The position numbers and the translations under genes are program-made. From positions 1-36,781 of the forward strand of contig JAFRQP010000061.1 in assembly GCA_017428565.1 (NCBI GenBank): a stretch of 36,781 nucleotides of DNA, in the 5' to 3' direction. This DNA comes from Oscillospiraceae bacterium. Lineage in GTDB: Bacteria; Bacillota; Clostridia; Oscillospirales; Oscillospiraceae. Within the stretch, counting starts at the first letter, position 1, and each line of letters opens with the position of its first letter. Below the pieces are notes generated by a model, which saw nothing but the letters and a program-made list of their open reading frames with translations, did not search any database and was not told the DNA's origin. This document shows, piece after piece, positions 19,374-33,165 of the stretch.

Positions 19374-19545
19374 GGCGCGCTGGTTGGGATTCGCCTGCGG
19401 CCGGGCACGCTGGTTGGGATTCGCTTGCATTTCTTTTTTGCTGCGGGAGACGCAAAAAAGAAATTAAGGTATCGTCCAGTGTTTGCACTGGTCGATGAAA
19501 GCCACCTGAGTGGCTTTCGGACATGATTCGAATCCCTTGCAGCGC
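19374..19545 (-). other. tRNA-tail-closed three-hairpin cassette, copy A (downstream of tRNA-Arg)
   Basis: Read on the minus strand from 19545. A left arm CGCTGCAAGGGATTCG is 15/16 identical to the inverse complement of the tRNA-Arg 3' tail. Then GAATCATGTCC and three hairpins: GAAAGCCAC/GTGGCTTTC (19497-19518); an 11-bp stem (one mismatch) with loop CAAA (19471-19496); and a 13-bp stem ATTTCTTTTTTGC/GCAAAAAAGAAAT (19429-19464). The right arm CGAATCCCAACCAGCG can pair with the left arm. A second tail-like copy (19374-19394) and a terminator follow. The same cassette lies after tRNA-Ser at 32759. Confidence 0.8.
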
Positions 19546-19582
19546 AAAAATCCCGCAGGCCCGAATGGGCTTGCGGGATTTT
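19546..19582 (-). terminator. tRNA-Arg terminator
   Basis: AAAAATCCCGCA arm with complementary TGCGGGATTTTT type arm, immediately after the encoded CCA of the tRNA on the minus strand. Confidence 0.9.
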
Positions 19583-19659
19583 TGGCACGCTGTAAGGGAT
19601 TCGAACCCCTGACCTTCTGGTCCGTAGCCAGACGCTCTATCCAGCTGAGCTAACAGCGC
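19583..19659 (-). tRNA. tRNA-Arg (anticodon ACG)
   Basis: A full cloverleaf on the minus strand. The acceptor GCGCTGT pairs with ACAGCGT (first pair G-U), the D-arm holds AGCTCAGCTGGATAGAGC, the anticodon stem TCTGG/CCAGA encloses CTACGGA (anticodon ACG), and the T-arm holds GGTTCGAATCCC. CCA is encoded. ACG needs A34-to-inosine editing to read CGN codons. Confidence 0.96.
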
Positions 19660-19677
19660 ATTTTTACGTGCTCAAGT

Positions 19678-19706
19678 ATATTAGCATAGCCGGAAAGAAA
19701 AAGCAA
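19678..19706 (-). promoter_or_regulatory. tRNA-Arg promoter
   Basis: On the minus strand TTGCTT (19701-19706), a 17-bp spacer and TAATAT (19678-19683), 18 nt before the tRNA 5' end. Confidence 0.7.
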
Positions 19707-19796
19707 GTCTTTTTTTCAGGTTTTTTCCATTTCTTTGTGAAACGGAATTCTTGCCGCATCGCACAGAAAGGCGCGGAAATTTTCCTGCTTTATTTG

Positions 19797-19825
19797 TTGA
19801 AATTTTCCAAATTATTGCGTATAAT
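19797..19825 (+). promoter_or_regulatory. arc operon promoter
   Basis: TTGAAA at 19797-19802, a 17-bp spacer and TATAAT at 19820-19825, about 62 nt before the arcA ATG. I did not find a convincing ArgR box by eye. Confidence 0.75.
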
Positions 19826-19887
19826 AGGACGGCGGTGCGCTCCGAGCGCCCATCGGCGAGAGCCAGCCGCCGGAAAGGGGAACGTGG

Positions 19888-21120
19888 ATGAAAGGTATTT
19901 GCGTACACAATGAGATCGGCACGCTGAAAAAGGTGCTGCTGCACCGGCCGGGGAAGGAGCTGCTGAATCTGACGCCGGATCGGCTGCAGGAGCTGCTGTT
20001 TGACGACATCCCCTTCCTGCGGGTGGCCCAGCGGGAGCACGATGCCTTCGCCCAGACCCTGCGCGACAACGGCGTGGAGGTGGTCTACCTGGAGGATCTG
20101 ATGACCCAGGTGCTGGACCAGAACCCCAAGCTGCTGGACCCCTTCCTGCACCAGTGGCTGCAGGAGGGCGGCATCCGCACCCGCCGCTGGCAGGACCGGA
20201 TTTCCGACTATCTGTGCGAGCATTTTTACGGCAAGGCTCTGGTGGAGAAGACCATGGAGGGCATCACCCTGAAGGAGATGGGCAACGTGAAGGCCTACTC
20301 CCTGCAGGACCGGATCGCCCCGCCGGACGATCTGATCGTGGACCCCATGCCCAACCTCTACTTCACCCGGGACCCCTTCGCCTCCGTGGGCGAGGGCGTG
20401 TTCCTGAACTGCATGCACTACCCCACCCGCCGGCGGGAGACTATCTACGCCGACTACATTTTCCGCTACCACCCGGACTTCTCCGGCCTGGTCAAGCGCT
20501 ACTACGACCGGGACATGCACGCCAGCATCGAGGGCGGCGACGTGCTGATCCTCTCGGAGAACACCATCGCCATCGGCATCTCCCAGCGCACCTGCCCCGA
20601 CGGCATCGAGGCTGCCGCCCGCAACCTCTTCCGGGACGCGTCGTGCCCGGTGCGTCGGATCCTGGCCTTCGACATTCCCCGCTGCCGGGCCTTCATGCAC
20701 CTGGACACGGTTTTCACCCAGGTGGACCGGGACAAGTTCACCATCCATCCCGCCATTCTGGGGCCGCTGACGGTCTATGAGCTGACCCCCGGCCCGGCGG
20801 ACAAGGGCGGGCTCTGCCTGCGGCAGATCGACTCCGATCTGGAGCACATTCTGGAGGAAACTCTGGGCGTGGAGAAGGTGGAGCTGATCCCCTGCGGGGG
20901 CGACGATCTGATTGCCGCCGCCCGGGAGCAGTGGAACGACGGCTCCAACACGCTCTGCATCGCCCCGGGCAAGATCGTGGTCTACGAGCGCAACGACGTG
21001 AGCAACCGGATTTTGCGGGACAAGGGTCTCACCGTGCTGGAGATCCCCAGCGCAGAGCTGAGCCGGGGCCGCGGCGGCCCCCGCTGCATGTCCATGCCCC
21101 TGGTCAGAGCCGCGCTTTGA
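19888..21120 (+). CDS. arcA: Arginine deiminase
   Basis: 410 aa. Cytosolic enzyme hydrolysing L-arginine to citrulline and ammonia, first step of the arginine deiminase pathway. Recognisable blocks are NEIGTLKKVLLHRPGKEL, the YFTRDPF substrate region, an EGGDVL acidic motif, MHLDTVFTQVD with the catalytic His, and the C-terminal RGGPRCMSMPLVRAAL with the nucleophilic Cys. Length is normal. The start at 19888 follows AAAGGGG. It heads an arcA-arcB-arcC order, but a GIY-YIG element now lies between arcA and arcB. A second copy of the last ~52 bp, with the Cys codon, lies at 21574-21625. Confidence 0.96.
   Translation: MKGICVHNEIGTLKKVLLHRPGKELLNLTPDRLQELLFDDIPFLRVAQREHDAFAQTLRDNGVEVVYLEDLMTQVLDQNPKLLDPFLHQWLQEGGIRTRRWQDRISDYLCEHFYGKALVEKTMEGITLKEMGNVKAYSLQDRIAPPDDLIVDPMPNLYFTRDPFASVGEGVFLNCMHYPTRRRETIYADYIFRYHPDFSGLVKRYYDRDMHASIEGGDVLILSENTIAIGISQRTCPDGIEAAARNLFRDASCPVRRILAFDIPRCRAFMHLDTVFTQVDRDKFTIHPAILGPLTVYELTPGPADKGGLCLRQIDSDLEHILEETLGVEKVELIPCGGDDLIAAAREQWNDGSNTLCIAPGKIVVYERNDVSNRILRDKGLTVLEIPSAELSRGRGGPRCMSMPLVRAAL
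21062..21120 (+). repeat. arcA 3' end, first copy of the duplicated segment
   Basis: From GCCGGGGC to the TGA stop. The segment is repeated at 21574-21625 with a 6-bp deletion and three substitutions. Confidence 0.85.
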
Positions 21121-21135
21121 TTTAAAGTGGCATAT

Positions 21136-21572
21136 ACAGGCCACAGGCCTGTCATTGCGAGCCAGTGCGCACACTGGCGTGGCAATCCGTTTTCCTTTCT
21201 CGTGTAAACAGAGACGAACCATCATGCACTATTACGTTTATATTCTCGCCAACGCAACAAACGTAGCTCTTTACATCGGCGTCAACAACGATCTGATCCG
21301 AAGGGTGTATGAGCACAGAACCAATGCCGACCCCAAGAGCCATACTGCCCGATACGGCATTCATAAGCTTGTCTATTATGAGGAGACAACGGATGTCAGG
21401 GCCGCTATCGGACGGGAAAAACAGCTCAAGAGTTGGAATCGGGCACGAAAAAATAAGCTGATTGGGAGCCTTAATCCCAGCTGGACTGATTTATACGACG
21501 GCCTGCTGTGAGTGACGATTGAGAGATGCGGATTGCCACACCAGTGACATCGGTCACTGGTTCGCAATGACA
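21136..21572 (+). mobile_element. Small GIY-YIG-encoding element with hairpin termini
   Basis: About 437 bp. The left end is the perfect hairpin ACAGGCC-ACA-GGCCTGT (21136-21152), running into TGTCATTGCGAGCCAGTG, then CACTGG and TGGCAATCCG (to 21189). The right end (21529-21572) is the inverse: CGGATTGCCACACC, hairpin CCAGTGAC-ATCG-GTCACTGG, TTCGCAATGACA. Each terminus is itself an imperfect palindrome. The only gene inside is a 95-aa GIY-YIG nuclease. It lies between arcA and a duplicate of the arcA 3' end. Two nuclease-less copies of its ends occur at 8343 and 9007. Confidence 0.8.
21224..21511 (+). CDS. GIY-YIG nuclease family protein (YhbQ-like, 95 aa)
   Basis: A single GIY-YIG domain fills the protein. 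MHYYVYILAN supplies the GIY-equivalent strand, ALYIGVNNDLIRRVYEH the YIG motif (Tyr18-Gly20) and catalytic Arg candidates, and AIGREKQLKSWNRARK the metal-binding Glu and basic helix. The C-terminal end is NPSWTDLYDGLL. The ATG at 21224 is chosen because the domain begins there; upstream in-frame codons lie in the terminal repeat. No strong ribosome binding site is visible (only AGACG), so expression may depend on arc operon read-through. Family members act on DNA. Its position between the element's inverted ends suggests a role in element movement, which is inference. Confidence 0.88.
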   Translation: MHYYVYILANATNVALYIGVNNDLIRRVYEHRTNADPKSHTARYGIHKLVYYEETTDVRAAIGREKQLKSWNRARKNKLIGSLNPSWTDLYDGLL

Positions 21573-21573
21573 T

Positions 21574-21625
21574 GCCGGGGCGGCCCCCGCTGCATGTCCA
21601 TGCCCCTGATCAAAGCCGCGCTGTG
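21574..21625 (+). pseudogene. Second copy of the arcA 3' end
   Basis: Encodes RGGPRCMSMPLIKAAL then TGA. Compared with functional arcA, two conservative amino acid changes (Val to Ile, Arg to Lys), one silent change and a 6-bp loss at the start. It begins two bases after the right terminus of the GIY-YIG element and has no start of its own. Confidence 0.85.
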
Positions 21626-21634
21626 AGCAGGAAC

Positions 21635-21741
21635 GAAAAGAGAAAAGTGAAAAGCTATGGTGTCCCGCTTCGCGGGACGGATTTGAATCAGTCGGCGGAG
21701 CCGACACAATCACTCTTCACTCTTCACTCTTCACTTTTTCG
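21635..21741. repeat. Heptad/two-hairpin composite repeat, copy H4
   Basis: Heptads GTGAAAA and similar, hairpin GTCCCGC-TTC-GCGGGAC (21662-21678), hairpin GTCGGC-GGA-GCCGAC (21691-21705), then CTCTTCA-type heptads. Same core orientation as H3. It follows the duplicated arcA end by 10 bp. Confidence 0.85.
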
Positions 21742-21790
21742 CGTTTCCCTTAACTTTATCATAAAACCAAATCATAGGAGGACTACTACC

Positions 21791-22786
21791 ATGGGCGTCA
21801 ACATCAGAGGACGGAGCTTCCTCACTCTTCTGGACTACACCCCCCACGAGATCAACTACCTCATCGACCTGGCCGCCGAGTTCAAACGTCTGAAGGCTGC
21901 CGGCGTGGAGCACAAATGGCTGAGCGGCAAGCAGGTCGTGCTGCTGTTCGAGAAGACCTCCACCCGCACCCGCTGCTCCTTCGAGGTGGGCGCCCGCGAC
22001 CTGGGCATGGGCGTGACCTTCCTGGATCCCGGCTCCAGCCAGATGGGCAAGAAGGAATCCCTGGCCGACACCGCCAAGGTCCTGGGCCGCATGTACGACG
22101 GCATCGAGTACCGCGGCTTCAAGCAGAGCGTGGTGGAGGATCTGGCCAAGTACTCCGGCGTGCCCGTGTGGAACGGCCTGACCGACGACTTCCATCCCAC
22201 CCAGATGCTGGCCGATATGCTCACCATCCGGGAGGAGTTCGGCCATGATCTGCGGGGCAGGAAGCTCACCTTCTTCGGCGACGCCCGCAACAACGTTGCA
22301 AACTCTCTCATGGTGGTCTGCGCCAAGCTGGGCATGCACTACTGCGCCTGCGGCCCCAAGGAAAACATGCCCAAGGCGGAGCTGATTGCCAAGTGCCAGG
22401 CCGTGGCCGCAGAGACCGGCGCCGTGCTGGAGTTCACCGACGACCCCGCCCAGGGCGCCAAGGACTGCGATGTGCTGTACACCGACATCTGGGTCTCCAT
22501 GGGCGAGCCCGCGGAGCTCTGGGCCAAGCGTATCGAGCTGATGCTGCCCTACCAGATCAACAAGGAGCTGATCGCCAAGGCCAAGCCCACCGCCATCTTC
22601 ATGCACTGCCTGCCCGCCTTCCACGACCGGGAGACCGTGGTGGGCGAAGAGATCTACCAGAAGTTCGGCCTGGAGGCCATGGAGGTCACCGACGACGTGT
22701 TCCTGGGGCCCCAGGCGCGGCAGTTTGACGAGGCCGAGAACCGCATGCACACCATCAAGGCCATCATGTACGCCACGTTGAAGTAA
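21791..22786 (+). CDS. arcB: Ornithine carbamoyltransferase (catabolic)
   Basis: 331 aa. Cytosolic enzyme of the arginine deiminase pathway, here expected to phosphorolyse citrulline to ornithine and carbamoyl phosphate. Motifs: carbamoyl-phosphate loop STRTRCSFEVG, LGMGVTFLDPGSSQMGKKES, the HPTQMLAD block, ornithine-binding DIWVSMGE, and the catalytic HCLPAFHD. The ATG at 21791 follows AGGAGG with a 9-nt spacing. The catabolic role is inferred from arcA upstream and arcC coupled downstream (1-nt overlap). The 280-bp spacer before it holds repeats and the arcA 3' duplicate. Confidence 0.96.
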   Translation: MGVNIRGRSFLTLLDYTPHEINYLIDLAAEFKRLKAAGVEHKWLSGKQVVLLFEKTSTRTRCSFEVGARDLGMGVTFLDPGSSQMGKKESLADTAKVLGRMYDGIEYRGFKQSVVEDLAKYSGVPVWNGLTDDFHPTQMLADMLTIREEFGHDLRGRKLTFFGDARNNVANSLMVVCAKLGMHYCACGPKENMPKAELIAKCQAVAAETGAVLEFTDDPAQGAKDCDVLYTDIWVSMGEPAELWAKRIELMLPYQINKELIAKAKPTAIFMHCLPAFHDRETVVGEEIYQKFGLEAMEVTDDVFLGPQARQFDEAENRMHTIKAIMYATLK

Positions 22787-23721
22787 TGGCGGAACGGATC
22801 GTTGTGGCCCTGGGCGGCAACGCCCTGGGCAGGACGCCGACGGAGCAGCTCTCCCTGGTGCGGGAGACCGCGCGCCCGCTGGTGGATCTGGTGGAAAAAG
22901 GCTATGAACTGGTCATCGGCCACGGCAACGGCCCCCAGGTGGGCATGATCAATCTGGCCATGGAGTATTCCGCCCAGAAGGGCGGCGGAACCCCCTTCAT
23001 GCCCTTTGCCGAGTGCGGGGCCATGACCCAGGGCTACATCGGCTACCATCTGCAGCAGGCTCTGCAGGAGGAGCTGCGCCGCCGGGGCATCCGCAAGGAG
23101 GTCGTCACCCTCGTCACCCAGGTGGTGGTGGACGAGAACGACCCCGGTTTTCAGCATCCCACCAAGCCCGTAGGCTGCTTCTACACCCGGGATCAGGCCG
23201 AGAAGATGGCCGCCAACAAGGGGCTCACCTTCATGGAGGACGCAGGGCGCGGTTATCGCCGTGTGGTGCCGTCTCCAATTCCCAGGCGCATTGTAGAGAT
23301 CAATGTGGTGGATCAGCTGGTGAAATCCGGCGTGATTGTGATCACAGTGGGTGGTGGTGGCATTCCCGTGGTGGAGACGCCCTACGGGCTGCGGGGCGTG
23401 GAGGCCGTGATCGACAAGGACCGCGCCTCTTCCCTGCTGGCCAGGGATCTGCACGCCGACCGGCTGATCATCCTGACGGCGGTGGACCGGGTCTGTGTGA
23501 ACTTCGGCAAGCCCGACCAGCGGGAGCTGGCGGAGATGAGCATCGCCGACTGCCAGCGCTACATCGCGGAGGGGCAGTTCGCCCCGGGCAGCATGCTGCC
23601 GAAGGTGGAGGCCTGTCTGGACTATGTCCGCGGCAACCCGGAGGGCGAGGCGCTGATCACCTCCCTGGTCCGTGCGGCGGACGCCCTGGAGGGCAGGACT
23701 GGCACCCTTATCCGGGGCTGA
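22786..23721 (+). CDS. arcC: Carbamate kinase
   Basis: 311 aa. Uses carbamoyl phosphate and ADP to make ATP plus carbamate, the energy-yielding last step of the pathway. Amino acid kinase fold with VVALGGNALGR at the N-terminus, VIGHGNGPQVG, GCFYTRDQAEKMA, a GGGGIPVV nucleotide loop, DKDRASSLLARDL, and LPKVEACLDYV. The ATG overlaps the arcB stop by one base (TAATG), implying coupled translation. A terminator follows 28 bp after the stop and closes the operon. Confidence 0.97.
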   Translation: MAERIVVALGGNALGRTPTEQLSLVRETARPLVDLVEKGYELVIGHGNGPQVGMINLAMEYSAQKGGGTPFMPFAECGAMTQGYIGYHLQQALQEELRRRGIRKEVVTLVTQVVVDENDPGFQHPTKPVGCFYTRDQAEKMAANKGLTFMEDAGRGYRRVVPSPIPRRIVEINVVDQLVKSGVIVITVGGGGIPVVETPYGLRGVEAVIDKDRASSLLARDLHADRLIILTAVDRVCVNFGKPDQRELAEMSIADCQRYIAEGQFAPGSMLPKVEACLDYVRGNPEGEALITSLVRAADALEGRTGTLIRG

Positions 23722-23749
23722 GGGCCTTCCCCACCCCAGACAGATACAA

Positions 23750-23779
23750 AAACAGACCGGGAGAAATCCCGGTCTGTTT
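23750..23779 (+). terminator. arc operon terminator
   Basis: AAACAGACCGGGA-GAAA-TCCCGGTCTGTTT, followed by further T-rich sequence. Confidence 0.92.
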
Positions 23780-23856
23780 GTCTGTTGTGCGTCGTGGGGA
23801 TATCTGTAACTGCGGGCGATACATGAAACGCCCCTGCGCATCCCCGCCCTCTCAAA

Positions 23857-23884
23857 ACTCAAATCTGAAAACTCAAAACTGAGC
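23857..23884. repeat. TCAAAAC-type heptad array
   Basis: Units TCAAAAC, TCAAATC, TGAAAAC, TCAAAAC in register, ending at the degV 3' end. Confidence 0.7.
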
Positions 23885-23886
23885 TC

Positions 23887-24771
23887 TCAGTCCACCCGCT
23901 CGCTGCCCCAGAAGAACAGGGCCACGGTGCCGGGGCCGGTGTGGGAGCCGATGGTGGTGCCTACATAGTTGATCTCCACCTTGCCGTTGAGCCTGGGGAA
24001 GCGCTCCTCCACCAGGGCGGCCACGGCCTGGGCGTCGGGGATGCAGGCGGACTGGGAGATGTAGCACTTGCCGTCATAGTCCAGACCGTCCCGGGCGCAC
24101 TCCTCCATCTTCTTCACGATCTCCCGGATGACCCGCTTTTTGGTGCGGATCTTAAAGCGGGGGATCAGGCGGCCCAGATTGTCCATATTCAGCAGGGGGC
24201 AGATCTCCAGGACGCTGCCGAAGAAGGCGGCGGTCTTGGAAATGCGGCCGCCCTTGACGTAAAAGCTCAGATCCGTGGAGAAAAACCAGTGGTGCAGCTT
24301 CAGGCGGTTTTCCTCGATCCAGGCGACCATCTCGTCCACGCTCAGCCCCTCGTCCCGCTTGGCGGCGGCGGTGTCCATCAGCAGGCCGTAGCCCGAGGAG
24401 GCGCCCAGGGAGTCGATGATATAGATCTTCCGCTCCGGGAAGCGCTCGGAGAGGATGTTGGCGGCGTTGCGGGCGGAGTTGATGGTGCCGGAGATGCCGG
24501 AGGAGAGGCACACGTGGACGATGTCCTGCCCCTGCTCCAGGAAGGGGGTAAAGGCGTCCACATACTCGGCCACGCTGACCTGGGAGGTCTTGGTGTCCGC
24601 CCCCTTGGTCATGCGGTCATAGAAATCCTCAAAGGGGATGGACTGGCCCAGATCGTCCGGATACTCCACCCCGTCCAGGGCGTAGTGGAAGCAGACGTAG
24701 TTGACGTGGATCTTTTCAAAATGCTCCTTGCTCAGATCGGCGGTGGAGCAGCAGCTGAGAATATAGCTCAT
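23887..24771 (-). CDS. DegV family protein (fatty-acid-binding, FakB-like)
   Basis: 294 aa. DegV/FakB proteins bind one fatty acid and present it to the FakA kinase for entry into phospholipid synthesis. Visible are the N-terminal ILSCCSTADLSKE, SSGISGTINSARNAANIL (fatty-acid carboxylate site region), the DSLGASSGYGLLM block and the C-terminal VGTTIGSHTGPGTVALFF. The start at 24771 follows AAAGGAGA. No FakA kinase gene is in the window. The link to the plsC-like gene at the window start is only thematic. Confidence 0.93.
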   Translation of the reverse strand: MSYILSCCSTADLSKEHFEKIHVNYVCFHYALDGVEYPDDLGQSIPFEDFYDRMTKGADTKTSQVSVAEYVDAFTPFLEQGQDIVHVCLSSGISGTINSARNAANILSERFPERKIYIIDSLGASSGYGLLMDTAAAKRDEGLSVDEMVAWIEENRLKLHHWFFSTDLSFYVKGGRISKTAAFFGSVLEICPLLNMDNLGRLIPRFKIRTKKRVIREIVKKMEECARDGLDYDGKCYISQSACIPDAQAVAALVEERFPRLNGKVEINYVGTTIGSHTGPGTVALFFWGSERVD

Positions 24772-24865
24772 CGGGAAGTCTCCTTTCCTGTTTTTCCAGC
24801 CTACAGGATACCCGCTTTCGCCGCAAGAGGCAATCCACCATCCGGCCCGCCCGCTCTACAAAACG

Positions 24866-24901
24866 GGAGCGCCCCCGGTTTTTTCTCTACCGGGGACGCT
24901 C
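24866..24901 (-). terminator. Terminator-like hairpin after the XRE gene
   Basis: Minus strand GGAGCG and CCCCGGT segments pair with ACCGGGG and CGCTCC around an AT-rich loop. It lies between the 3' end of the XRE gene and the degV start. Confidence 0.65.
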
Positions 24902-24935
24902 CGCTCACTCTACGATTCGTAGAATATCCGTGTTT

Positions 24936-25583
24936 TCAAGGGCTTTCGGCTTCGTTGCCCGCTTTCTCCATTTTGGCCGCGGTTCCCTTCTTCGGCCGCT
25001 TCTGCACATGAAAGCTGAGGAAGACCAGCGCCTCCGCCAGCACGGCGATGAGAAAGATCTGCCAGGGGTTGTGGTTGAGGAACAGCAGATAAAAGGCGCC
25101 GAACAGACTCAGCACAAAGAGCGCCACCACATATTTCAGATAGTGCGTCCGCTTGAAGATGCACAGCAGCACCATCCAGGTCAGCACCGACACCGGGAAG
25201 GCCGCAACAAAGATCTTCCAGCGCACCATATCCGCCAGCCACAGGGCCACGAAAGCCGTCAGCGCCAGGGTCCAGACCCCCAGCACGGCGATGGCGATGA
25301 TGACGCTGGTGCTGTACACCACGTCCTGCTTGGGATCCTCCGCCGTCCGGGTGGGCTCCCAGCTCGTGTGGGAGGAGAGGATGTAGTCCACCGTCACGCC
25401 GAAGAGCTCCGCCATCTGGGTCAGCACATAGGCGTCCGGGATGGCCTCGCCCCGCTCCCACTTGGAGATGCTCTTGTCGGAATAATTCAGTTTTGCCCCC
25501 AGCTCCGCCTGGGTAAGCCCTGCGGCGGTGCGGAGGTTGATGAGGTTGCCGGCTGCCACCAGCTTCAGTTCTTCCAGCTGCAT
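24936..25583 (-). CDS. XRE-family regulator with C-terminal membrane domain
   Basis: 215 aa. An N-terminal helix-turn-helix of Cro/CI type spans residues ~5-60 (NLINLRTAAGLTQAELGAKL, NYSDKSISKWERGEAIPDAY, typical XRE layout). After a ~35-residue linker, four or five hydrophobic segments reach the C-terminus (for example VIIAIAVLGVWTLALTAFVA). This suggests a membrane-tethered regulator. I chose the ATG at 25583 because AAAAGGAG lies 8 nt upstream; an in-frame ATG at 25601 lacks a site. Targets and signal are unknown. Confidence 0.85.
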   Translation of the reverse strand: MQLEELKLVAAGNLINLRTAAGLTQAELGAKLNYSDKSISKWERGEAIPDAYVLTQMAELFGVTVDYILSSHTSWEPTRTAEDPKQDVVYSTSVIIAIAVLGVWTLALTAFVALWLADMVRWKIFVAAFPVSVLTWMVLLCIFKRTHYLKYVVALFVLSLFGAFYLLFLNHNPWQIFLIAVLAEALVFLSFHVQKRPKKGTAAKMEKAGNEAESP

Positions 25584-25757
25584 AAGGCGGCTCCTTTTCA
25601 TAGTTAAAAGAGATTATATCATGTTTTTTCTGTTTTTTCAACGGAGAGGCTGGACAAAATTCCGATCTTGTGTAAAATAGGTTTGCATTCCGGACGAGCG
25701 TTTTCCGCGCCCCCGGACAAACGGAAAAGGATCCGCCCCCGGGCGGGAGGAGGAAGC

Positions 25758-26489: not shown

Positions 26490-26536
26490 AGCGCGGCTTC
26501 GAAAGAAGAAAGCCCTTCGATCCTTCTCCTTCATGC

Positions 26537-26572
26537 AAAAACCCAGCCTCACTGAAGCGAGGCTGGGTTTTT
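26537..26572. terminator. Bidirectional terminator
   Basis: AAAAACCCAGCCTC with GAGGCTGGGTTTTT, between the convergent VTT and SH3b genes. Confidence 0.92.
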
Positions 26573-26589
26573 CTCGTTATTCTCTTGGA

Positions 26590-27153
26590 TCAGGGCGCCT
26601 TTTCGGAGATGAACTCCCCTGCCACGTAGCCGATCACGGAATCGTTGTACCAGATCTTGCACCAGCCGCCTTCGTAGCCCAGGATCTTTACCATGGTGCC
26701 CTTGGGCAGGCTCTCATAGATCTTGTAATTGGTGCCGGGGCCCACGCGGAAGTTGGCCCAATCCACCGTGGTGTAGCCGATCTTGGCATAGAACTTCTCT
26801 TCCTGGGTGGCGGTGGGGTAGTACATGTCGCCGGTATCGTCGGCAAACTCGATCTCACCCTCCTGTCCGTCGGAATTGTCGTCGGCGCTGGCCTCGGGCG
26901 CGGGAGTGGGGGCGGGCGTCGCGGTGGGCACCTCGACAGGCACCGTGGTGGGCGCGGTGGTGGGCAGCGTCTCCACCGGGGCGTACTCCACAGGCGTGTC
27001 GGGGCCGCTGACGATGGCGGGAGGCGTCTCGATGACCATGTTGTTGTCACCGGGGTCCACATTCTCCACGACCTCGGCCTCCTTGGTTTCGCCGCAGGCC
27101 GCCAGGGCGAAGACCGCGGCAAGGATCAAAATCAGAGCAAGCAGCTTTTTCAC
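26590..27153 (-). CDS. SH3b-domain lipoprotein
   Basis: 187 aa. A lipoprotein signal with lipobox FALAAC (Cys20) is followed by an acidic, Thr/Pro/Val-rich stalk (~25-105). A C-terminal bacterial SH3 domain spans ~125-185 (NFRVGPGTNYKIYESLPKGT, VKILGYEGGWCKIWY). It is probably anchored on the outer face of the membrane and binds cell-wall peptides or partner proteins. The ATG at 27153 follows TAGGAGG. The following clostripain-like gene on the same strand is also surface-directed, but a 210-bp spacer separates them. Confidence 0.92.
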   Translation of the reverse strand: MKKLLALILILAAVFALAACGETKEAEVVENVDPGDNNMVIETPPAIVSGPDTPVEYAPVETLPTTAPTTVPVEVPTATPAPTPAPEASADDNSDGQEGEIEFADDTGDMYYPTATQEEKFYAKIGYTTVDWANFRVGPGTNYKIYESLPKGTMVKILGYEGGWCKIWYNDSVIGYVAGEFISEKAP

Positions 27154-27214
27154 GGATAAAACCTCCTAACCATAACATGCAAAAGGCGATTCGTCCACTT
27201 ATGTTTGCAGCGGT

Positions 27215-27227
27215 ATTGTACCACAGC
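27215..27227 (-). promoter_or_regulatory. Extended -10 promoter of the SH3b lipoprotein
   Basis: Minus strand GCTGTGGTACAAT, the same CTGTGGTA block seen upstream of plsC, the PRTase-like gene and the GNAT gene; no clear -35. Confidence 0.55.
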
Positions 27228-27302
27228 TTCGGGAAAAAGAAAACATAATTTTTCTTAATATCCGGGCAAAAACCTGGAAATTCAAGGCAAAGTGGGGAAT
27301 GG

Positions 27303-27362
27303 GGGTTCCGCGTTCCGGGTTCAGCGTTCAGCGGGCGGGGGGATTCTCAGAACGCAGAACGG
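27303..27362. repeat. GTTCAGC-type heptad array
   Basis: Units GTTCCGC, GTTCCGG, GTTCAGC, GTTCAGC, then an inverse run CAGAACGCAGAACGG, just beyond the 3' end of the clostripain-like gene. Confidence 0.65.
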
Positions 27363-27363
27363 A

Positions 27364-29877
27364 TCAGCCGCGCAGGCTCTCTGTCCAGTAGTGCTGCTGG
27401 TAGAGGTCGGTGAAGCGGAAGGTGTAGACCGGGCGGTCGCTCTCGTCCAGGGGGACGTTTTCGACCTTCACGCCGTCTTCCCCGATGATCAGGGGCGCGC
27501 CCAGGTAGTAGCTGTTCTCATAGGTCCCGTCGTAGCGGTAGTAGTCGCAGAGAAAGTCCAGCCGGTCGCCGGGCTGCAGGAGGCGGATATTGGTCTGGGC
27601 GTCGGCGTCGCTGGTGTTCTCCAGGTCCACCGGCTCGCCCGGCTCAGTCTGGGTCTTGGGCAGCTCCTGAAGCTCCTGGTCCTCGTAGACCGTGCGGATG
27701 CCGATGACCGCGCCCTCGCCGGTCTCGCCGTCGAAGCGGATCAGCAGCTCCACCCGCTCGCCGTTGAGCTCGGCGGGCACGTAGCCGTAGAAGCCGTTGT
27801 CCACGGCGTACTCGTGGTAGTAGGCCACCGGGTGATCGTTGATGGCCACCCAGCTGCGCTCCTGGGGCGCCAGCAGGGCGCCGTCCTCGTCCCAATCAAA
27901 GACCATGTCCAGGCCCATGTCCAGGTAGCCCTCGCCGTCGTCCAGGAAGAGGTTCAGCGCCAGGCCCTCCACCATGGCCCACTGCTCCTCGGGCAAGGCG
28001 ATCACATACTCGCCGGCGGCGTTCTGGGTCCAGGTCAGCTTAGTGGGGTCGAAGTGGTTGGCCGCGATGTAGGCGGCGGTGTCCTCGGTGCTGATGCTGC
28101 GGCCGAAGAGGAAGCCGGTGTTGCCGGAGGAGAGGCCCGGGATGGCGCCGAAATCGCCGCCGCCCAGGAAGCCCTCCAGCAGGCCGGTCAGATCATAGCT
28201 GCTGGAGGAGGCGCCGCTGTAGCCGCCGCCAAAAAGGCTGGCATAGGGGTTGTTGCTGCCGCCGGAGGCCACCTGGCCGCTGACCTCCATGCTGGCAAAC
28301 TCCCGGATGCACTGGGAGTAGCTGGAATCCATGCCGATGGCCTGGTAGGTCTTCACGGCCTTGTCCACATTGGCAGTCTTCCGATAGGGGAAGTAGATGG
28401 AGAGGCCATAGGCGTTGGACATGTTGGAGGAGGTGCGGTTGTACTTCACCGCGCCCAGCAGAGCCTCGGCCAGAGCGCGGCTCTCCGCGGTGTCCAGGTT
28501 CCTGGCGAAGTGGACCAGGTCGATCTGGTCGATGGCGGTGCTGCGGGCAAACTCACGGGCGCCGTTGCGGGCGTTGGAGACCTGCTGGAAGCCGTCGTTC
28601 TGGATCAAACCGATGACGGACTTGGAGAAGTCCCGCATGGCATCGGGCACCGTGGCGGAGAGCTCCGCGATATCCACCACCGAGAGGGTGGCGGACTGGC
28701 CCGGGCACTGGCTGGAGCAGGTGCGGACAAAGTCGTCCACGATGTTCTTGCCGATGTCCACGCTGGGCATGGAGGTGTTGTTGGAGAGCTTGGTGAGCCA
28801 GTCGGTGTAGTACCAGCCGATGCCGGGCTCGGTCTCCTCGGAGGCGATCATGTAGTCCGCGTAGGGCTCCAGCATGAGACCGGTCTCCACGGTGGCCATC
28901 AGGCAGGCGTCGAAGCCCACGATGTCGAACTGGATGCCGCCGTCCTTCAGCGCCCGGTCGATGCCCTCCAGAGGCATGGAGCCGCTGCGCTTGTTGTTCT
29001 CGTCATAGCCGTAGCCGCTGACAGAGCCGCCGCCGTGATCCCAGAGGATCAGCATATAGCGGTTGGCGGGGTAGTTTTTGGCGCCCCACTGGATGAAGCG
29101 GGTCAGCGTGGCGGGGTCGGTCATGGCGCCGGTGCCGTGGTTGTCCACCACACGCTTGAGACCGCCGCTCTGCACCTCGTAGATCTGGTTCTGCCGGCTG
29201 CTGATCACGCTGTTGTTCCACCGGGCGCAGCCGCCGGTGTAGACCAGCACGTGGACATTGGGGCCGATGGTGGCACGGGTCATCTCGGTCAGGTCCTTGG
29301 TGGCCATACCGCTGCGGGACTCCAGGTCCGTGCCGCACATGTAGATCAGGATGGTGACCTCATCCCGCTGGTTGCCCAGGATGCGGGTGTACTTGTCCCG
29401 CGCGCCGGAGGCCACGCTGGTGTCCACAGCGCCGGAGTTGACCTCCTGGGCGCTGCCGGAGTAGGAGGCGCCGGCCAGAAGGTTGGCGTAGGGGTTCGCG
29501 CTGCTCGTCGTGCTGCCGCTGCCGGAACCGCTGCCGCCGGGGATCAGGTTCCCGTAGGGGTTGGCGCTCACATCATTGTAGGCGCTGCCGCCGGAAAGCG
29601 CGCTGTCATCGCCGCCCCCCAGCAGGCCGCCCAGGCCGCCGCCTTTCAATAGCATGATAAGGACAAGGATGATGACGATGAGGATGCCACCGCCGCCGCC
29701 GGCCTTGGCGGCGCGGCTCATGCCCTGGCCGGCGGGCCGGCTGGGGCGGTTGGGGCGGTTGGGGTTGCTGCCGGCGCTGCCCACGGGACCGGTGTTCTGG
29801 CCCTCGCCGCGCCGATAGGCTCCGGTGCTCTGTCCGGAGACTTTGGTTTTACGACCCTGGGGTCTGTTCTCTGGCAT
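27364..29877 (-). CDS. Membrane-anchored clostripain-family (C11) cysteine peptidase
   Basis: 837 aa. A cytoplasmic Arg/Pro-rich N-terminus (~1-60) precedes one membrane span (~63-78, ILIVIILVLIMLL) and a Gly/Ser/Asn-rich linker with two SANPY(G/A)NL repeats. The clostripain domain begins at VTILIYMCGTDLES and contains ILWDHGGG (His281) and GFDACLM (Cys325), the expected dyad. The C-terminal ~300 residues are beta-rich and unassigned. I prefer the ATG at 29877, preceded by GCGAGG, over a TTG 9 nt upstream. Clostripain prefers Arg sites; specificity is not visible here. The substrate is unknown, probably extracellular. Confidence 0.9.
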   Translation of the reverse strand: MPENRPQGRKTKVSGQSTGAYRRGEGQNTGPVGSAGSNPNRPNRPSRPAGQGMSRAAKAGGGGGILIVIILVLIMLLKGGGLGGLLGGGDDSALSGGSAYNDVSANPYGNLIPGGSGSGSGSTTSSANPYANLLAGASYSGSAQEVNSGAVDTSVASGARDKYTRILGNQRDEVTILIYMCGTDLESRSGMATKDLTEMTRATIGPNVHVLVYTGGCARWNNSVISSRQNQIYEVQSGGLKRVVDNHGTGAMTDPATLTRFIQWGAKNYPANRYMLILWDHGGGSVSGYGYDENNKRSGSMPLEGIDRALKDGGIQFDIVGFDACLMATVETGLMLEPYADYMIASEETEPGIGWYYTDWLTKLSNNTSMPSVDIGKNIVDDFVRTCSSQCPGQSATLSVVDIAELSATVPDAMRDFSKSVIGLIQNDGFQQVSNARNGAREFARSTAIDQIDLVHFARNLDTAESRALAEALLGAVKYNRTSSNMSNAYGLSIYFPYRKTANVDKAVKTYQAIGMDSSYSQCIREFASMEVSGQVASGGSNNPYASLFGGGYSGASSSSYDLTGLLEGFLGGGDFGAIPGLSSGNTGFLFGRSISTEDTAAYIAANHFDPTKLTWTQNAAGEYVIALPEEQWAMVEGLALNLFLDDGEGYLDMGLDMVFDWDEDGALLAPQERSWVAINDHPVAYYHEYAVDNGFYGYVPAELNGERVELLIRFDGETGEGAVIGIRTVYEDQELQELPKTQTEPGEPVDLENTSDADAQTNIRLLQPGDRLDFLCDYYRYDGTYENSYYLGAPLIIGEDGVKVENVPLDESDRPVYTFRFTDLYQQHYWTESLRG

Positions 29878-30057
29878 AAGATGCAACCTCGCTTTCTTTA
29901 GAAGGAAAGGGCTTCGGCGTCCCTTCCCCCGCTTTTCTTCAAAGTGTTAACGCTTGTAGTTCAGTATAGCAGATTCTTTTTCCCGGCGCCAGTCCCCCGG
30001 CGCATTTTTTCCGCCCCAGGGACCTTTCTCTTTGAAAAAATGTGGGAAAACCCGCAC

Positions 30058-30086
30058 TTGCATGCGGAAACAGAATGTGATAAAAT
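30058..30086 (+). promoter_or_regulatory. rex promoter
   Basis: TTGCAT (30058-30063), a 17-bp spacer and TAAAAT (30081-30086). A TGTGA...ACAAAA stretch overlaps the -10 and may be a degenerate Rex site for autoregulation, but I would not assert it. Confidence 0.55.
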
Positions 30087-30122
30087 AAACAAAATGATTG
30101 GTCGGACAAGGAGAGCAGAAAC

Positions 30123-30800
30123 ATGAAACGTCTGAAGGTTTCCAACAACGTGATCCGCCGGCTGCCCCGCTATCTGCGCAAGCTGGACGAGCTGAGCGCC
30201 CAGGGGGTCAGCAGGGTGTCTTCCTCGGAGCTGGGAAAGCAGCTTGGGCTGACGCCGTCTCAGATCCGGCAGGACTTCAGCTGCTTCGGGGAGTTCGGCC
30301 AGCAGGGCTACGGCTACCACGTGCCCACGCTCCGGGCCCAGGTGGCCGCCATCCTGGGCATGGACCGGAATTACCGGGCGGTGCTCATCGGCGTGGGCAA
30401 CATCGGCCACGCGCTGATCGACAACTTCTGCTTCAGCGACTGGGGCTTTCAGCTCACCGCCGCCTTCGACGTGAAGCCGGAGGTCGTGGGCACCGTATTC
30501 AACAAGGTCCCGGTGCTGTCCGTGGAGGAGCTGCCCCAGTATCTGGACGAGCATGAGACCGATATCGCCGTGCTCGCCGTTCCCAAGGACGCCGCCATCC
30601 CCGTCACCCGCCTTCTGACCGCCCACGGGGTGGAGGCCATCTGGAACTTCACCAATGTGGAGCTCACGGAGCCCAACAGCAGCGTCATTGTGGAAAACGT
30701 GCATTTTTCCGACAGTCTGCTGTCTCTGAGCTACTTCGTCTCTGAGCGGCAGGACGAAAAGGCCGCCCGCGCCGCCCGGGAAGCGCGCCGGGAGCATTGA
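30123..30800 (+). CDS. rex: Redox-sensing transcriptional repressor Rex
   Basis: 225 aa. A DNA-binding repressor that senses the NADH/NAD+ ratio and controls fermentation and respiration genes. The N-terminal winged helix spans ~1-80 (VIRRLPRYLRKLDEL, SSELGKQLGLTPSQIRQDFS with the recognition helix, GQQGYGY). The Rossmann domain carries VLIGVGNIGHAL, AAFDVKPEVVG and AVLAVPKDAA. The length fits the family. The ATG follows AAGGAGAGC. It is followed by mnmE, but with a 178-bp repeat-bearing spacer. Confidence 0.97.
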   Translation: MKRLKVSNNVIRRLPRYLRKLDELSAQGVSRVSSSELGKQLGLTPSQIRQDFSCFGEFGQQGYGYHVPTLRAQVAAILGMDRNYRAVLIGVGNIGHALIDNFCFSDWGFQLTAAFDVKPEVVGTVFNKVPVLSVEELPQYLDEHETDIAVLAVPKDAAIPVTRLLTAHGVEAIWNFTNVELTEPNSSVIVENVHFSDSLLSLSYFVSERQDEKAARAAREARREH

Positions 30801-30978
30801 GAGTTTTGAGTTTCGAGTTTTGAGAGGACGAGATCCCCCTCCCTGTCATCGCGAACCTCCCTGCCGCTGACGGAAGGGGTCAACCTTCCTTCATTCCTTT
30901 ATTCCTTCATGTCTTCATTCCTTCATCCACACGGGGAGGGGCCTGTCCCCTTCCCCTTCTTTCTTTTGGAGGTCGCTT
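30801..30978. repeat. Repeat-bearing spacer between rex and mnmE
   Basis: Contains a GAGTTTT/GAGTTTC heptad run (30801-30823), the inverse of the array at 23857. A TGTCATCGCGAACC fragment at 30844-30857 is one base from the GIY-YIG element terminus. An eight-base periodic TTCCTTCA/TTCCTTTA run is at about 30885-30927. The mnmE ribosome binding site GGAGG lies at the end. Confidence 0.65.
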
Positions 30979-32337
30979 ATGTCTGAACCCATCGCCGCCA
31001 TCGCCACCGGCGCCCAGGTTGCCGCCATCGGCATCGTCCGCCTCTCCGGCGAGGGCGTGATCGCGCTGGCCGGGCGGCTGTTCCGCCCCGCGGGGGAGCT
31101 CCCCCTTGAGGCGCAGCCGGACCGGAAGCTCTGCTACGGCCGGCTCTGCCGCCGGGACGGGAGCCTGCTGGATCTGTGTCTGACCACCGTGAGCCGCGCC
31201 CCCAACAGCTACACCGGCGAGGACACCGTGGAATTTCAGTGCCACGGCTCCCCCCTGCTGCTGCGCACGCTTCTGGAGGAGCTCTTCGCCCTGGGCGCCC
31301 GGCAGGCCGGGCCCGGGGAATTCACCAAGCGGGCCTTCCTCAACGGCCGCCTGGGCCTCTCGGAGGCGGAGGCCGTGGCCGATCTCATCGACGCGGAGAG
31401 CGACGAGGCCCTGCGCAACGCCGCCGGGCAGCTCTCCGGCGCCATCCACCGCCGGGCCGAGGCCATCTATTCCGCCCTCTCGGACATCAGCGCACACTAC
31501 CACGCGGTGCTGGACTACCCGGACGAGGACATCGAGGACTTCCGCCTCCGGGACTACCGGGCGACCATGGAGGAGGCGCTGGAGCGTCTCAACCGGCTGC
31601 TCAGGAGCTTCGAGCGAGGCCGGCTTCTCAATGCGGGCATCCCCACCGCCATCGTGGGCCGGCCCAACGCGGGCAAAAGCTCTCTGCTGAACGCCCTGCT
31701 GGGCTATGACCGGGCCATTGTCACCGCCGTCCCCGGCACCACCCGGGACACCATCGAGGAGCGGCTGCGGCTGGGCGGGCTCTGCCTGCGGCTGATCGAC
31801 ACCGCCGGCATCCGGGACACGGAGGACGAGGTGGAGCGCCTGGGGGTCCTGCGCAGCCGGGCCGCCCTGGAGCAGGCGGAGCTGGTGCTGGCCGTGGTGG
31901 ACGGCAGCCGGGACTACAGCGACGAGGACCGGGAGATCCTGCGGGCCGCGGAGACGGCGAAGCGGGGTCTGGTGGTGCTCTCCAAGCGGGATCTGGCCGC
32001 GGTGACGGAGGAGATCGACACGCCTCTGCCCGTGATCCCGGTGAGCAGCCTCACCGGCCAGGGTCTGGAGGCGCTGGAGGCGGCCATCGCGGCCCTCTTC
32101 CCCCTGCCGGAGGCCCCGGCGGGCGAGATCCTCACCAACGCCCGCCAGCGGGACGCCGTGGCCCGGGCGGCCGAAGCGCTGCGCGCCGCGCTGGAGGCCA
32201 TGGAGCAGGGTCTGACGCCGGATCTGGTGCTGACAGAGACCGAGGGGGCCATGGCCGCCCTGGGCGAGCTCACCGGGCGCAGCGTCCGTGAGGACGTCAC
32301 CGACCGCATCTTCCGCCGCTTCTGCGTGGGGAAGTGA
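30979..32337 (+). CDS. mnmE: tRNA uridine-34 modification GTPase MnmE (TrmE)
   Basis: 452 aa. With MnmG it installs the carboxymethylaminomethyl (or related) group at C5 of wobble uridine in certain tRNAs. The N-terminal formyl-THF-binding domain starts PIAAIATGAQVAAIGIVRLSG and contains NSYTGEDTVEFQCHG. The G domain contains G1 GRPNAGKSS, switch/G2 TTRDTIEE, G3 DTAG and G4 SKRD. The C-terminus ends FCVGK, carrying the essential Cys of the family. The ATG follows TTTTGGAGG. No mnmG is adjacent. Confidence 0.97.
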   Translation: MSEPIAAIATGAQVAAIGIVRLSGEGVIALAGRLFRPAGELPLEAQPDRKLCYGRLCRRDGSLLDLCLTTVSRAPNSYTGEDTVEFQCHGSPLLLRTLLEELFALGARQAGPGEFTKRAFLNGRLGLSEAEAVADLIDAESDEALRNAAGQLSGAIHRRAEAIYSALSDISAHYHAVLDYPDEDIEDFRLRDYRATMEEALERLNRLLRSFERGRLLNAGIPTAIVGRPNAGKSSLLNALLGYDRAIVTAVPGTTRDTIEERLRLGGLCLRLIDTAGIRDTEDEVERLGVLRSRAALEQAELVLAVVDGSRDYSDEDREILRAAETAKRGLVVLSKRDLAAVTEEIDTPLPVIPVSSLTGQGLEALEAAIAALFPLPEAPAGEILTNARQRDAVARAAEALRAALEAMEQGLTPDLVLTETEGAMAALGELTGRSVREDVTDRIFRRFCVGK

Positions 32338-32590
32338 GAGCGAACGGTGATAGACTGACGCCGTGGGGGCGCATCACGATGCGCCCGCCGTCACGGGACA
32401 GCCTCGACCACCACCGCAGGGAGGGACTTACCCATCCCGCGGTCATGGGAACTCCCTCCGTCGTCCGCCTGGCGTGAGATCGGCGGACGCCACCTCCCTC
32501 GGAGAGGGAGGCAAAGTCCCCGCCGCCGTGGCGCGTTCCTCCATTTCTTCACCCCTTCATCCTATCTGCGCGCTATCCCGTACATTTTTC
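32338..32590. repeat. Palindromic repeats between mnmE and tRNA-Ser
   Basis: A hairpin GGGCGCAT-CACG-ATGCGCCC is at 32367-32386. A composite palindrome at about 32450-32511 has CTCCCTCCGTC, the stem GTCCGCC/GGCGGAC, and the hairpin CCTCCCTC-GGA-GAGGGAGG. The second belongs to the same family as the one inside the PMT-like gene at 11410. No gene is visible. Confidence 0.7.
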
Positions 32591-32619
32591 TTGACAAGCC
32601 AGCGGCGCTGTGATAATAT
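32591..32619 (+). promoter_or_regulatory. tRNA-Ser promoter
   Basis: TTGACA (32591-32596), a 17-bp spacer and TAATAT (32614-32619), 14 nt before the tRNA. Confidence 0.8.
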
Positions 32620-32632
32620 ACTCGGGCGGCAT

Positions 32633-32724
32633 GCAGAAGTACCCAAGAGGCCGAAGGGGCTCCCCTGCTAAGGGAGTAGGCGTGTATAAAGCGCGCGAGG
32701 GTTCAAATCCCTCCTTCTGCGCCA
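32633..32724 (+). tRNA. tRNA-Ser (anticodon GCU)
   Basis: A type II tRNA with a long variable arm. The acceptor GCAGAAG pairs with CTTCTGC, the anticodon stem CTCCC/GGGAG encloses CTGCTAA (anticodon GCT), the variable arm is GTAGGCGTGTATAAAGCGCG-like, and the T-arm holds GGGTTCAAATCCC. Discriminator G and encoded CCA. Confidence 0.96.
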
Positions 32725-32725
32725 T

Positions 32726-32757
32726 AAAAAGAGACTACCTTTGGGTAGTCTCTTTTT
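32726..32757 (+). terminator. tRNA-Ser terminator
   Basis: AAAAAGAGACTACC with GGTAGTCTCTTTTT. Confidence 0.92.
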
Positions 32758-32758
32758 A

Positions 32759-32902
32759 TGCCAGAGGAGGGATTTGAATCATGTCCGAAAGCCACGCAGG
32801 TGGCTTTCATCGACCAGTTCAAAAACTGGTCGATTCCTTGATTCCTTTTTGCCGTCCCCCACAAGGCAAAAAGGAATGCACGCAAATCCCTCCTTCTGCG
32901 TC
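32759..32902 (+). other. tRNA-tail-closed three-hairpin cassette, copy B (downstream of tRNA-Ser)
   Basis: The left arm GGAGGGATTTG pairs perfectly with the right arm CAAATCCCTCC. The right arm is part of an 18-base exact copy (32883-32900) of the tRNA-Ser 3' tail (32704-32721). Inside are GAAAGCCAC-GCAG-GTGGCTTTC (32787-32808), the perfect 11-bp stem ATCGACCAGTT-CAAA-AACTGGTCGAT (32809-32834) and the 13-bp stem ATTCCTTTTTGCC/GGCAAAAAGGAAT (32841-32877). Relative to copy A, several stem positions changed on both strands with pairing kept. Confidence 0.8.
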
Positions 32903-32936
32903 AAAAAAGAACCACCCAAAAGGGTGGTTCTTTTTT
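32903..32936 (+). terminator. Terminator after the first tRNA-Ser tail copy
   Basis: AAAAAAGAACCACCC-AAAA-GGGTGGTTCTTTTTT. Confidence 0.9.
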
Positions 32937-33123
32937 GGCATAGAAGAAGGTGGAATTATGATTCCGAGCGCGCGGAGCGCGCGAGGGGATTGCGGATTCC
33001 CGCCGCCGGTGGCGGATGAAGGGAATCCGCAATCTCCGCAGCGGTCGAAAAACCGGAGGATCAGCGTAAGCCCGAACGGTTTTTCGGGCCCCGCAAGGTG
33101 GGAGAATCCCTCCTTTTGCGCCA
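32937..33123 (+). other. Second tail-ended cassette downstream of tRNA-Ser, different interior
   Basis: Opens GGCATAGAAGAAGGTGGAAT, resembling a decayed inverse tail, and ends AATCCCTCCTTTTGCGCCA (33105-33123), a third copy of the tRNA-Ser 3' end with CCA. The interior contains GCGCGC-GGA-GCGCGC (32968-32982), a perfect 14-bp stem GATTGCGGATTCCC/GGGAATCCGCAATC (32988-33034) enclosing CCGCC/GGCGG, and a CCCGAA/TTCGGG stem (33071-33088). It shares the frame of copy B but not its hairpins. Confidence 0.65.
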
Positions 33124-33129
33124 TCAAAG

Positions 33130-33165
33130 AAACCTCTTTTGTCTACCAAGGCAAAAGAGGTTTTC
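33130..33165 (+). terminator. Terminator after the second tRNA-Ser tail copy
   Basis: AAACCTCTTTTG with CAAAAGAGGTTT, ending in TTTTC. Confidence 0.85.

Follow-up and report, generated by a model that had tools for sequence, protein, structure and literature searches.

A three-hairpin cassette behind tRNA genes of an Oscillospiraceae bacterium, probably a small mobile DNA of an undescribed type

Two copies of the cassette in the window

The stretch of DNA analyzed here, called the window, comprises 36,781 nucleotides from an Oscillospiraceae bacterium (GenBank assembly GCA_017428565.1, contig JAFRQP010000061.1, positions 1 to 36,781 of the forward strand). An earlier note, made from the sequence alone, had described a three-hairpin cassette that occurs twice in the window, as copy A (19374-19545, minus strand) and copy B (32759-32902, plus strand), each behind a tRNA gene. 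The two upstream genes were confirmed as tRNA-Arg(ACG) (19583..19659, minus; ARAGORN and Rfam RF00005), the putative target of copy A, and tRNA-Ser(GCT) (32633..32724, plus; tRNA search and Rfam), the putative target of copy B. Copies A and B are oriented alike with respect to their tRNAs.

Reading away from tRNA-Arg on the minus strand, a palindromic terminator-like hairpin, termed T (A-run, GC stem, T-run), starts at the CCA end of the tRNA (19546..19583) and is followed by an inverse copy of the tRNA tail (GCGCTGCAAGGGATTCGAA, 19527..19545), hairpin 1 (19497..19518), hairpin 2 (19471..19496), hairpin 3 with its variable 13-bp stem (19429..19464), and a direct copy of the tRNA tail (CGAATCCC.., 19404..19423). 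A second direct copy of the tail (19374..19393) and a second terminator-like hairpin (about 19341-19373) lie behind it. On the plus strand, copy B consists of hairpin T (32724..32759), an inverse copy of the tRNA-Ser tail (32763..32778), hairpin 1 (32787..32808), hairpin 2 (32809..32834), hairpin 3 (32841..32877), and a direct copy of the tail (CAAATCCCTCCTTCTGCG, 32883..32900), behind which stands a second terminator-like hairpin (32903..32936). The core hairpins were located from sequence and fold, and the inverse and first direct tail copies from sequence and tail matching; the terminator-like hairpins and the second direct tail of copy A were read from the sequence.

Direct reading of the sequence showed that GAATCATGTCC and the hairpin GAAAGCCAC/GTGGCTTTC are present in both copies, as the earlier note had stated. 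The hairpin described there as 11-4-11 with loop CAAA (hairpin 2) was likewise found in both; its stem was not a perfect 11-bp stem in copy A, where the fold contains one A-A mismatch. The 13-bp hairpin differs between the copies at three positions, all of them compensated, and the closing stems, GGGATTCG/CGAATCCC and GGGATTTG/CAAATCCC, are each local to their own tRNA. A cloverleaf-like multibranch fold was obtained for both copies, whether folded as DNA or as RNA, with z-scores of -7.8 to -10.7 and none of 200 shuffles folding as well (DNA of both strands and RNA of the sense strand). A fragment noted earlier at 33619 proved to be a real truncated element, made up of the 3' half of hairpin 1 and hairpin 2 (33625..33662, plus; sequence reading).

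Distribution of the element

A pattern search of the same genome located six places, and a first covariance model was built from six copies. This model gave 20 matches in the genome: 18 good copies, a decayed one at C4:7075, and an echo of a tandem pair on the reverse strand. Fourteen good copies stand behind tRNAs, once each behind tRNA-Arg(ACG), Ser(GCT), Ser(GGA), Ser(TGA), Thr(GGT), and Glu(TTC) and twice each behind tRNA-Lys(TTT), Leu(GAG), Gly(CCC), and Pro(TGG), and two stand behind tmRNA (Rfam RF00023 at L064:1564-1914). The tail of a copy on contig C51 fits tRNA-Pro(CGG) about 6 kb upstream, with an ordinary integrative element and its integrase in between, and the tail of a copy on C75 resembles tRNA-Ala(CGC), with no tRNA called beside it. 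At L210, on contig C51, the integrative element in tRNA-Pro(CGG) carries repeated tRNA 3' halves and lies upstream of the cassette.

With the covariance model, the element was found in 18 of 36 other genomes of the same genus, with 0 to 20 matches per genome of the genus, and in none of 23 genomes from other families of the order. A family-wide search found it in 18 of 400 genomes (own genome included), belonging to 10 of 106 genera. An order-wide search of 394 genomes was positive in 5, which all belong to the family of the own genome; the absence elsewhere in the order is provisional because this search scored 8 candidates per genome. When genome contigs were scanned for the hairpin 2 motif, at least 117 stretches were found, and the 80 of them that were listed are all labeled Oscillospiraceae, Ruminococcaceae, Clostridia, Clostridiales, or Eubacteriales; where their titles name a sample, it is ruminant gut. 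Of 80 motif-found loci given to model R2, 79 matched. The hairpin 2 pattern occurred in only three viral contigs, in one of them behind tRNA-Lys, and a phage or plasmid origin was rejected after copy B, used as a query, found no match in phage and plasmid collections.

No named RNA family accounts for the cassette. At gathering scores, Rfam returned only tRNA and tmRNA, and the remaining Rfam matches, which fell below the thresholds of their own families, were rejected as names for it. Neither Rfam 15 nor searches of open-access literature, outside of which lie most subscription journals and preprints, gave a name for the cassette.

Element edges match the tail of the adjacent tRNA

A first set of loci was fetched from relatives. 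Most copies in it match the tail of the upstream tRNA directly and, before the core, in inverse orientation. A second set was chosen by the hairpin 2 motif and comprised 81 copies (91 rows less 7 first-set copies and 3 duplicates), 51 of which lie 35-56 bp behind a tRNA on the same strand (23 kinds) or a tmRNA. For these 51 copies, the tail of their own tRNA was the best among 37 tails in 47 cases for the direct copy and in 35 for the inverse copy. The direct match averaged 16.0 bases, compared with 5.5 for the tails of other tRNAs, and the inverse match 11.8 bases, compared with 6.5.

To locate the edges, 109 distinct copies from both sets were profiled in an alignment anchored on inner positions only. 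The direct copy starts at tRNA position 56 (match 0.22 at 55 and 0.82 at 56) and drops after 76; the inverse copy starts at position 54 (0.29 at 53 and 0.97 at 54) and fades beyond 65. Both edges may in fact lie at 55/56, since T54 and T55 are near-universal in tRNAs and the AA at the start of the core can be assigned to either side. Of the 109 copies, 105 have a hairpin of at least 8 pairs and no more than one mismatch between the CCA and the inverse tail, and in 100 this hairpin has at least 12 pairs. A footprint consisting of duplicated tail plus terminator was considered and found unsupported, as mean identity falls after position 76.

Cores can be alike where tails are unlike: those behind the tmRNA and tRNA-Val(CAC) of G428 agree at 92%. 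Among 111 copies, the nearest-neighbor core came from the same tRNA kind in 23 (above the 2.9% of random pairs), from the same genome in 33 (above the 6.0% of random pairs), and from neither in 64; many of the copies have no assigned tRNA. By these counts the core is strictly tied neither to tRNA kind nor to genome, and both ideas were discarded. Tandem copies, internal duplications, and truncated copies are present; at L058 and L061, which belong to two different tRNAs, a common noncoding stretch (CCGCGCGGCGGGGTTATTGAACGTGAAAGACACCCC..) lies between tandem copies.

Covariation in the core hairpins

Hairpin 2 is constant in sequence in most copies, and hairpins 1 and 3 are variable yet still paired. 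Double changes were present in 44 of 45 pairs in both alignments, amounting to 1156 cells against 303 in shuffles in the first set and to 752 against 214 in the second, where 93% were paired compared with 31-45% when slid; these counts lean towards the structure, because both alignments were fitted to its model and have some copies in common. The earlier note had set beforehand that a lack of covariation, or of enrichment beside tRNA genes, would count against it, and both covariation and enrichment were found.

In hairpin 1, 1.0% of cells were G-T pairs, and in hairpin 3, 1.3%; A-C pairs accounted for 0.6%. As controls from the same loci, tRNA acceptor stems had 6.2% G-T and 0.6% A-C, and tRNA anticodon stems, with 1.9% G-T and 1.2% A-C, came close to the rate of the element; by itself, this G-U test is not decisive between DNA and RNA. 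In 29 pairs of close copies, which are not independent of one another, 54 changes were two-sided and 26 one-sided, and 27 of 51 Watson-Crick double changes were of transversion type. With few G-U pairs and roughly every second double change a transversion, these data fit a DNA palindrome with mutually copied arms better than an RNA helix.

Other cores and orthologous loci

The same layout was seen with cores other than the three-hairpin core (type I). In the own genome, a different core (type II) stands behind tRNA-Tyr and tRNA-Arg(CCG), and yet another behind tRNA-Val(GAC). Type II and III cores in the order tail, inverse tail, core, tail occur at L177 (tRNA-Tyr), L180 (tRNA-Arg CCG), and L056 (behind tRNA-Val(GAC)), as well as at L340, L348, L352, L355, and L366; the type III inverse copy is taken from the 5' side of the T-arm. 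In the fetched loci, an inverse tail of at least 9 bases was present in 158 of 356 tRNA contexts; by motif, these 158 were 111 type I, 4 type II, 5 type III, 20 other (many of them divergent type I by eye), and 18 with no direct tail within reach; these fractions are not rates, because the loci were mostly fetched for holding the element.

Orthologous comparisons were made between loci of different species. A survey of tRNA-Lys covered 101 genomes of the genus and took the 30 best loci; of the 28 that were readable, 13 carry a core of type I, II, or III. tRNA-Arg(ACG) stands beside an arginine deiminase gene in 7 of 16 loci. These seven orthologous loci had type I (three), another core (one), a gene unit (one), or nothing but a palindromic terminator extending into the acceptor sequence (two). 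At L159 and L160, both tRNA-Arg(ACG) loci with no core, the terminator palindrome reaches 9-10 bases into the acceptor sequence; these extended palindromes may be scars or an older state.

Other sequences were observed near the same sites. Further structured sequence like GTCAGAAGAAG..CCTTCTTCC stands behind tRNA or element-borne tails at L170, L184, L134, and L145. Near tRNA-Lys, L350 and L356 contain arrays of direct repeats resembling GTTCGTTGG, which may be arm sites for the integrases of other islands.

One-gene units behind tRNA tails

Downstream of copy B, the window contains what appears to be a decayed second unit, followed by a leader, an open reading frame (ORF) of 106 amino acids, and the truncated element. 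A further degenerate direct tail copy (GAATCCCTCCTTTTGCGCC, 33104..33122, plus; sequence reading) perhaps ends a second, poorly preserved core at about 32937-33103, which would make this stretch a decayed cassette. It is followed by the leader terminator of a one-gene unit (33122..33168, plus; sequence and motif search), whose motif also occurs behind tRNA tails or element-borne tails at other loci, and by the ORF itself (33281..33601, plus; ORF list), with no match in Pfam or PADLOC.

The fetched loci were searched for two leader motifs, in which a terminator is followed by promoter-like sequence and, as a rule, one ORF, and only instances with a CCA just upstream were retained. Seventeen instances passed this filter; by eye, 16 stand behind a tRNA or an element-borne tail, the exception being L018:2364. 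A type I core lies just upstream in 8 of the 17, and some instances are part of larger integrative elements. Another core follows some gene units (C12, L126, and L136) and none follows others in the fetched sequence. One-gene units with common terminator-promoter leaders, beginning at a tRNA tail or an element-borne one, were observed at L187:1870-2783 (behind tRNA-Val(CAC)), L064:2100-2760, L126, L136, and window positions 33122-33601, and their ORFs look mutually unrelated. Ten ORFs between or behind copies were compared with Pfam; two matched HTH domains, one each matched GNAT, Sel1, CHAP, and AMP-binding, and four had no match.

Candidate enzymes

According to the available parts of the cited papers, the T-loop is one crossover subsite of tyrosine recombinases in tRNA genes (PMC4383910), integron integrases act on folded single strands (PMC8946536), and template switching homogenizes the arms of inverted repeats (PMC8604942). 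The type I units of the own genome (about 0.2 kb) contain no PF00589 match. The own genome has 10 tyrosine recombinases at 11 places, and none of the 9 tested reached the integron-integrase cut-off (TIGR02249) in this draft genome, which is 84% complete. The same incomplete draft, with its 18 good copies, gave no match to PF01797 (Y1). Within the genus, Y1 was found in 12 of the 19 carriers, compared with 9 of the 18 other genomes, and RVT_1 in 7 and 4 of them, respectively; the 7 carriers from other genera gave no RVT_1 match. Both enzymes, Y1 transposase and the reverse transcriptase, were therefore rejected as required movers, given that Y1 is missing from the own genome and that many carriers do without one or both.

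Discussion

We lean towards the explanation that the cassette belongs to the small, non-autonomous mobile DNA elements and uses the T-loop of tRNA and tmRNA genes as its docking site. Including the terminator hairpin, the element is about 170-200 bp long, and its order is tRNA tail, palindromic terminator T, inverse tail (54 to about 65), three-hairpin core, and direct tail (56-76). It displays sharp edges, a match to the local tail, uniform orientation, tandem copies, several cores in one layout, and presence or absence at orthologous tRNAs of different species. The earlier note had offered two interpretations. The one that held up is a mobile element at tRNA 3' tails that takes on the local sequence; it is supported by cores that resemble one another although they stand, with tails matched to each locus, behind tmRNA and a wide variety of tRNAs, and by orthologous tRNA loci of different species that carry the element, another core, or neither. 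The other, a structured RNA, fared less well, because G-T pairs are rare in hairpins 1 and 3, 27 of 51 Watson-Crick double changes between close copies are of transversion type, and only tRNA was found among Rfam families over the cut-off at the elements searched.

In the mechanism that we propose, the direct tail would correspond to the 3' fragment that tRNA-integrating islands displace from the tRNA, and the tail copy adjoining the tRNA body would keep the tRNA functional. Movement of the unit would depend on a recombinase acting in trans; a tyrosine recombinase is the likeliest candidate, since these enzymes are the ones known to work at T-loop sites of tRNAs. The recombinase may act on a folded single strand or a cruciform, as structure is kept more than sequence. 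After insertion, template switching could convert a foreign inverse tail into the local one, and such homogenization of inverted-repeat arms would keep the inverse tail matched to the local tail; the paired changes of hairpins 1 and 3 would have the same explanation.

A tRNA 3' fragment lies downstream of the tRNA in the same orientation and starts in the T-loop, as expected of a tRNA-integrating island. tRNA and tmRNA islands and their satellites, which use a tyrosine integrase, likewise have their target inside the tRNA or tmRNA gene, restore the target gene, leave a displaced 3' fragment downstream in the same orientation, include a T-loop crossover class, and form tandem arrays, as far as the available part of the Islander paper describes them (PMC4383910). 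Compared with that same description, the cassette differs in having no integrase gene inside, a length of about 0.2 kb rather than over 2 kb (the Islander filter), an extra inverse tail, a multi-hairpin core, and one core family for about two dozen tRNA kinds. Integron attC sites, in the accessible part of PMC8946536, likewise have a strong palindromic fold with little sequence conservation, a closing stem at the presumed recombining sequence, tandem units, and a fixed orientation. The cassette differs from the sites described there in its tRNA T-loop target, in a closing stem that matches each target over about 10 bases, in its unmatched boxes, and in the finding of no integron integrase among 9 of the 10 own-genome recombinases, those tested. 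Repetitive hairpin-forming and double-hairpin elements of mitochondria are likewise small, mobile-looking hairpin repeats; they lie in mitochondrial intergenic regions and some genes, and locally copied tRNA ends are not described in the part of PMC2800124 available to us. Homogenization of inverted-repeat arms by template switching, in the corresponding part of PMC8604942, accounts for paired changes in both arms; being a mutational process and no element, it leaves the spread unexplained.

Base-pair covariation, expected of a structured RNA family, is present in the cassette and is expected of a DNA palindrome as well. The cassette could be a structured noncoding RNA, transcribed by tRNA read-through or from its own promoter, with a tail-matched closing stem that would compete with the T-arm or mimic it and would regulate or protect the processing of the tRNA. 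The very strong covariation, the strong folds, the constant orientation and place behind tRNAs, and the slight excess of G-T over A-C are consistent with such an RNA. However, we regard it as unlikely: a terminator-like hairpin separates the tRNA from the element in 105 of 109 copies, G-U pairs are rare, transversion-type changes are frequent among the double changes (27 of 51), and the element is patchy at orthologous loci, occurs in truncated copies, and belongs to no Rfam family over the cut-off. Little credence is also given to an origin with no enzyme of its own, in which hairpin-rich DNA at tRNA ends spreads by replication template switching and unequal recombination and its arms are homogenized in place. 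Neither the sharp edges at 54 and 56 over 23 tRNA kinds and tmRNA nor the alike cores at many different tRNAs are explained in this way, although tandem copies, internal duplications, and the predominance of two-sided over one-sided changes (54 to 26) are what it would produce.

Integron attC boxes have the form GTTRRRY/RYYYAAC. The T-loop reads TTCRA in the inverse copy, and the direct copy begins at C56, neither of which fits this form; nor does the T-loop GTTCRAN fit the integron box GTTRRRY. This misfit, the failure of all nine tested tyrosine recombinases to reach the integron-integrase cut-off, and the gene units with no terminal core in the fetched sequence make us doubt an integron-like system, in which the T-loop would serve as attI and the folded core as attC, and in which tRNAs would be followed by stacks of one-gene cassettes, each bringing its own terminator and promoter. 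That such a system nevertheless merits some weight is due to structure that is better kept than sequence, several cores in one layout, one-gene units right behind tRNA or element-borne tails (16 of 17 by eye, 8 with a type I core upstream), and ORFs of differing functions. A tentative form of this idea, which we likewise hold to be rather improbable, is integron-like docking at many parallel tRNAs, where the core, closed by inverted copies of the local T-arm, would be the folded single-strand site of recombination and the recombinase moving the cassettes would read structure instead of sequence, so that the element could serve any tRNA by copying its tail. Single-strand-acting enzymes are known to use the hairpins of hairpin-rich repeats, and the cassette is a hairpin-rich noncoding repeat. 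Even so, it is very improbable that the cassette is a REP- or MITE-like element mobilized by a Y1 (IS200/IS605) transposase, or a retroelement that makes use of the tRNA tail: the own genome gave no PF01797 match, Y1 was found in 12 of the 19 carriers of the genus as against 9 of its 18 other genomes, and RVT_1 in 7 of 19, 4 of 18, and none of the 7 carriers of other genera.

Several observations weigh against a mobile element that docks in the T-loop. In the second set, 11 of the 81 copies have no same-strand tRNA within 3 kb in the fetched sequence, 10 lie at 61-3000 bp from one, and 9 are cut by an edge. We infer movement from sequence comparison; no excision, circle, or new insertion was seen among loci that came from different species. 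We know of no tRNA-island layout with an inverse tail copy. No recombinase could be linked to the element, as tyrosine recombinases are present in 42 of 44 genomes tested and their matches overlap between the 19 carriers of the genus (3-16) and the 18 others (0-15). G-T pairs slightly exceed A-C pairs in hairpins 1 and 3 (20 versus 12 and 20 versus 9), and in hairpin 2 the counts were 11 versus 2 in the second alignment and 15 versus 15 in the first; the anticodon-stem control, at 16 versus 10, itself has little excess.

Collectively, the cassette has the appearance of a small mobile DNA of an undescribed type, where undescribed refers to Rfam 15, the open-access literature searched, and the one copy unmatched in phage and plasmid collections; its mechanism could prove a variant of tRNA integration. 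Very strong covariation can stem from DNA palindromes and alone is no proof of RNA. tRNA genes are classic landing sites of mobile DNA, and the other tRNA-targeting elements known to us are bound to one tRNA by fixed sequence. Here, among uncultured bacteria of the gut, one core family serves about two dozen tRNA kinds and tmRNA, each copy with its local inverse and direct tail. If mobile, the cassette would be a retargetable site-specific element whose recognition is structural.

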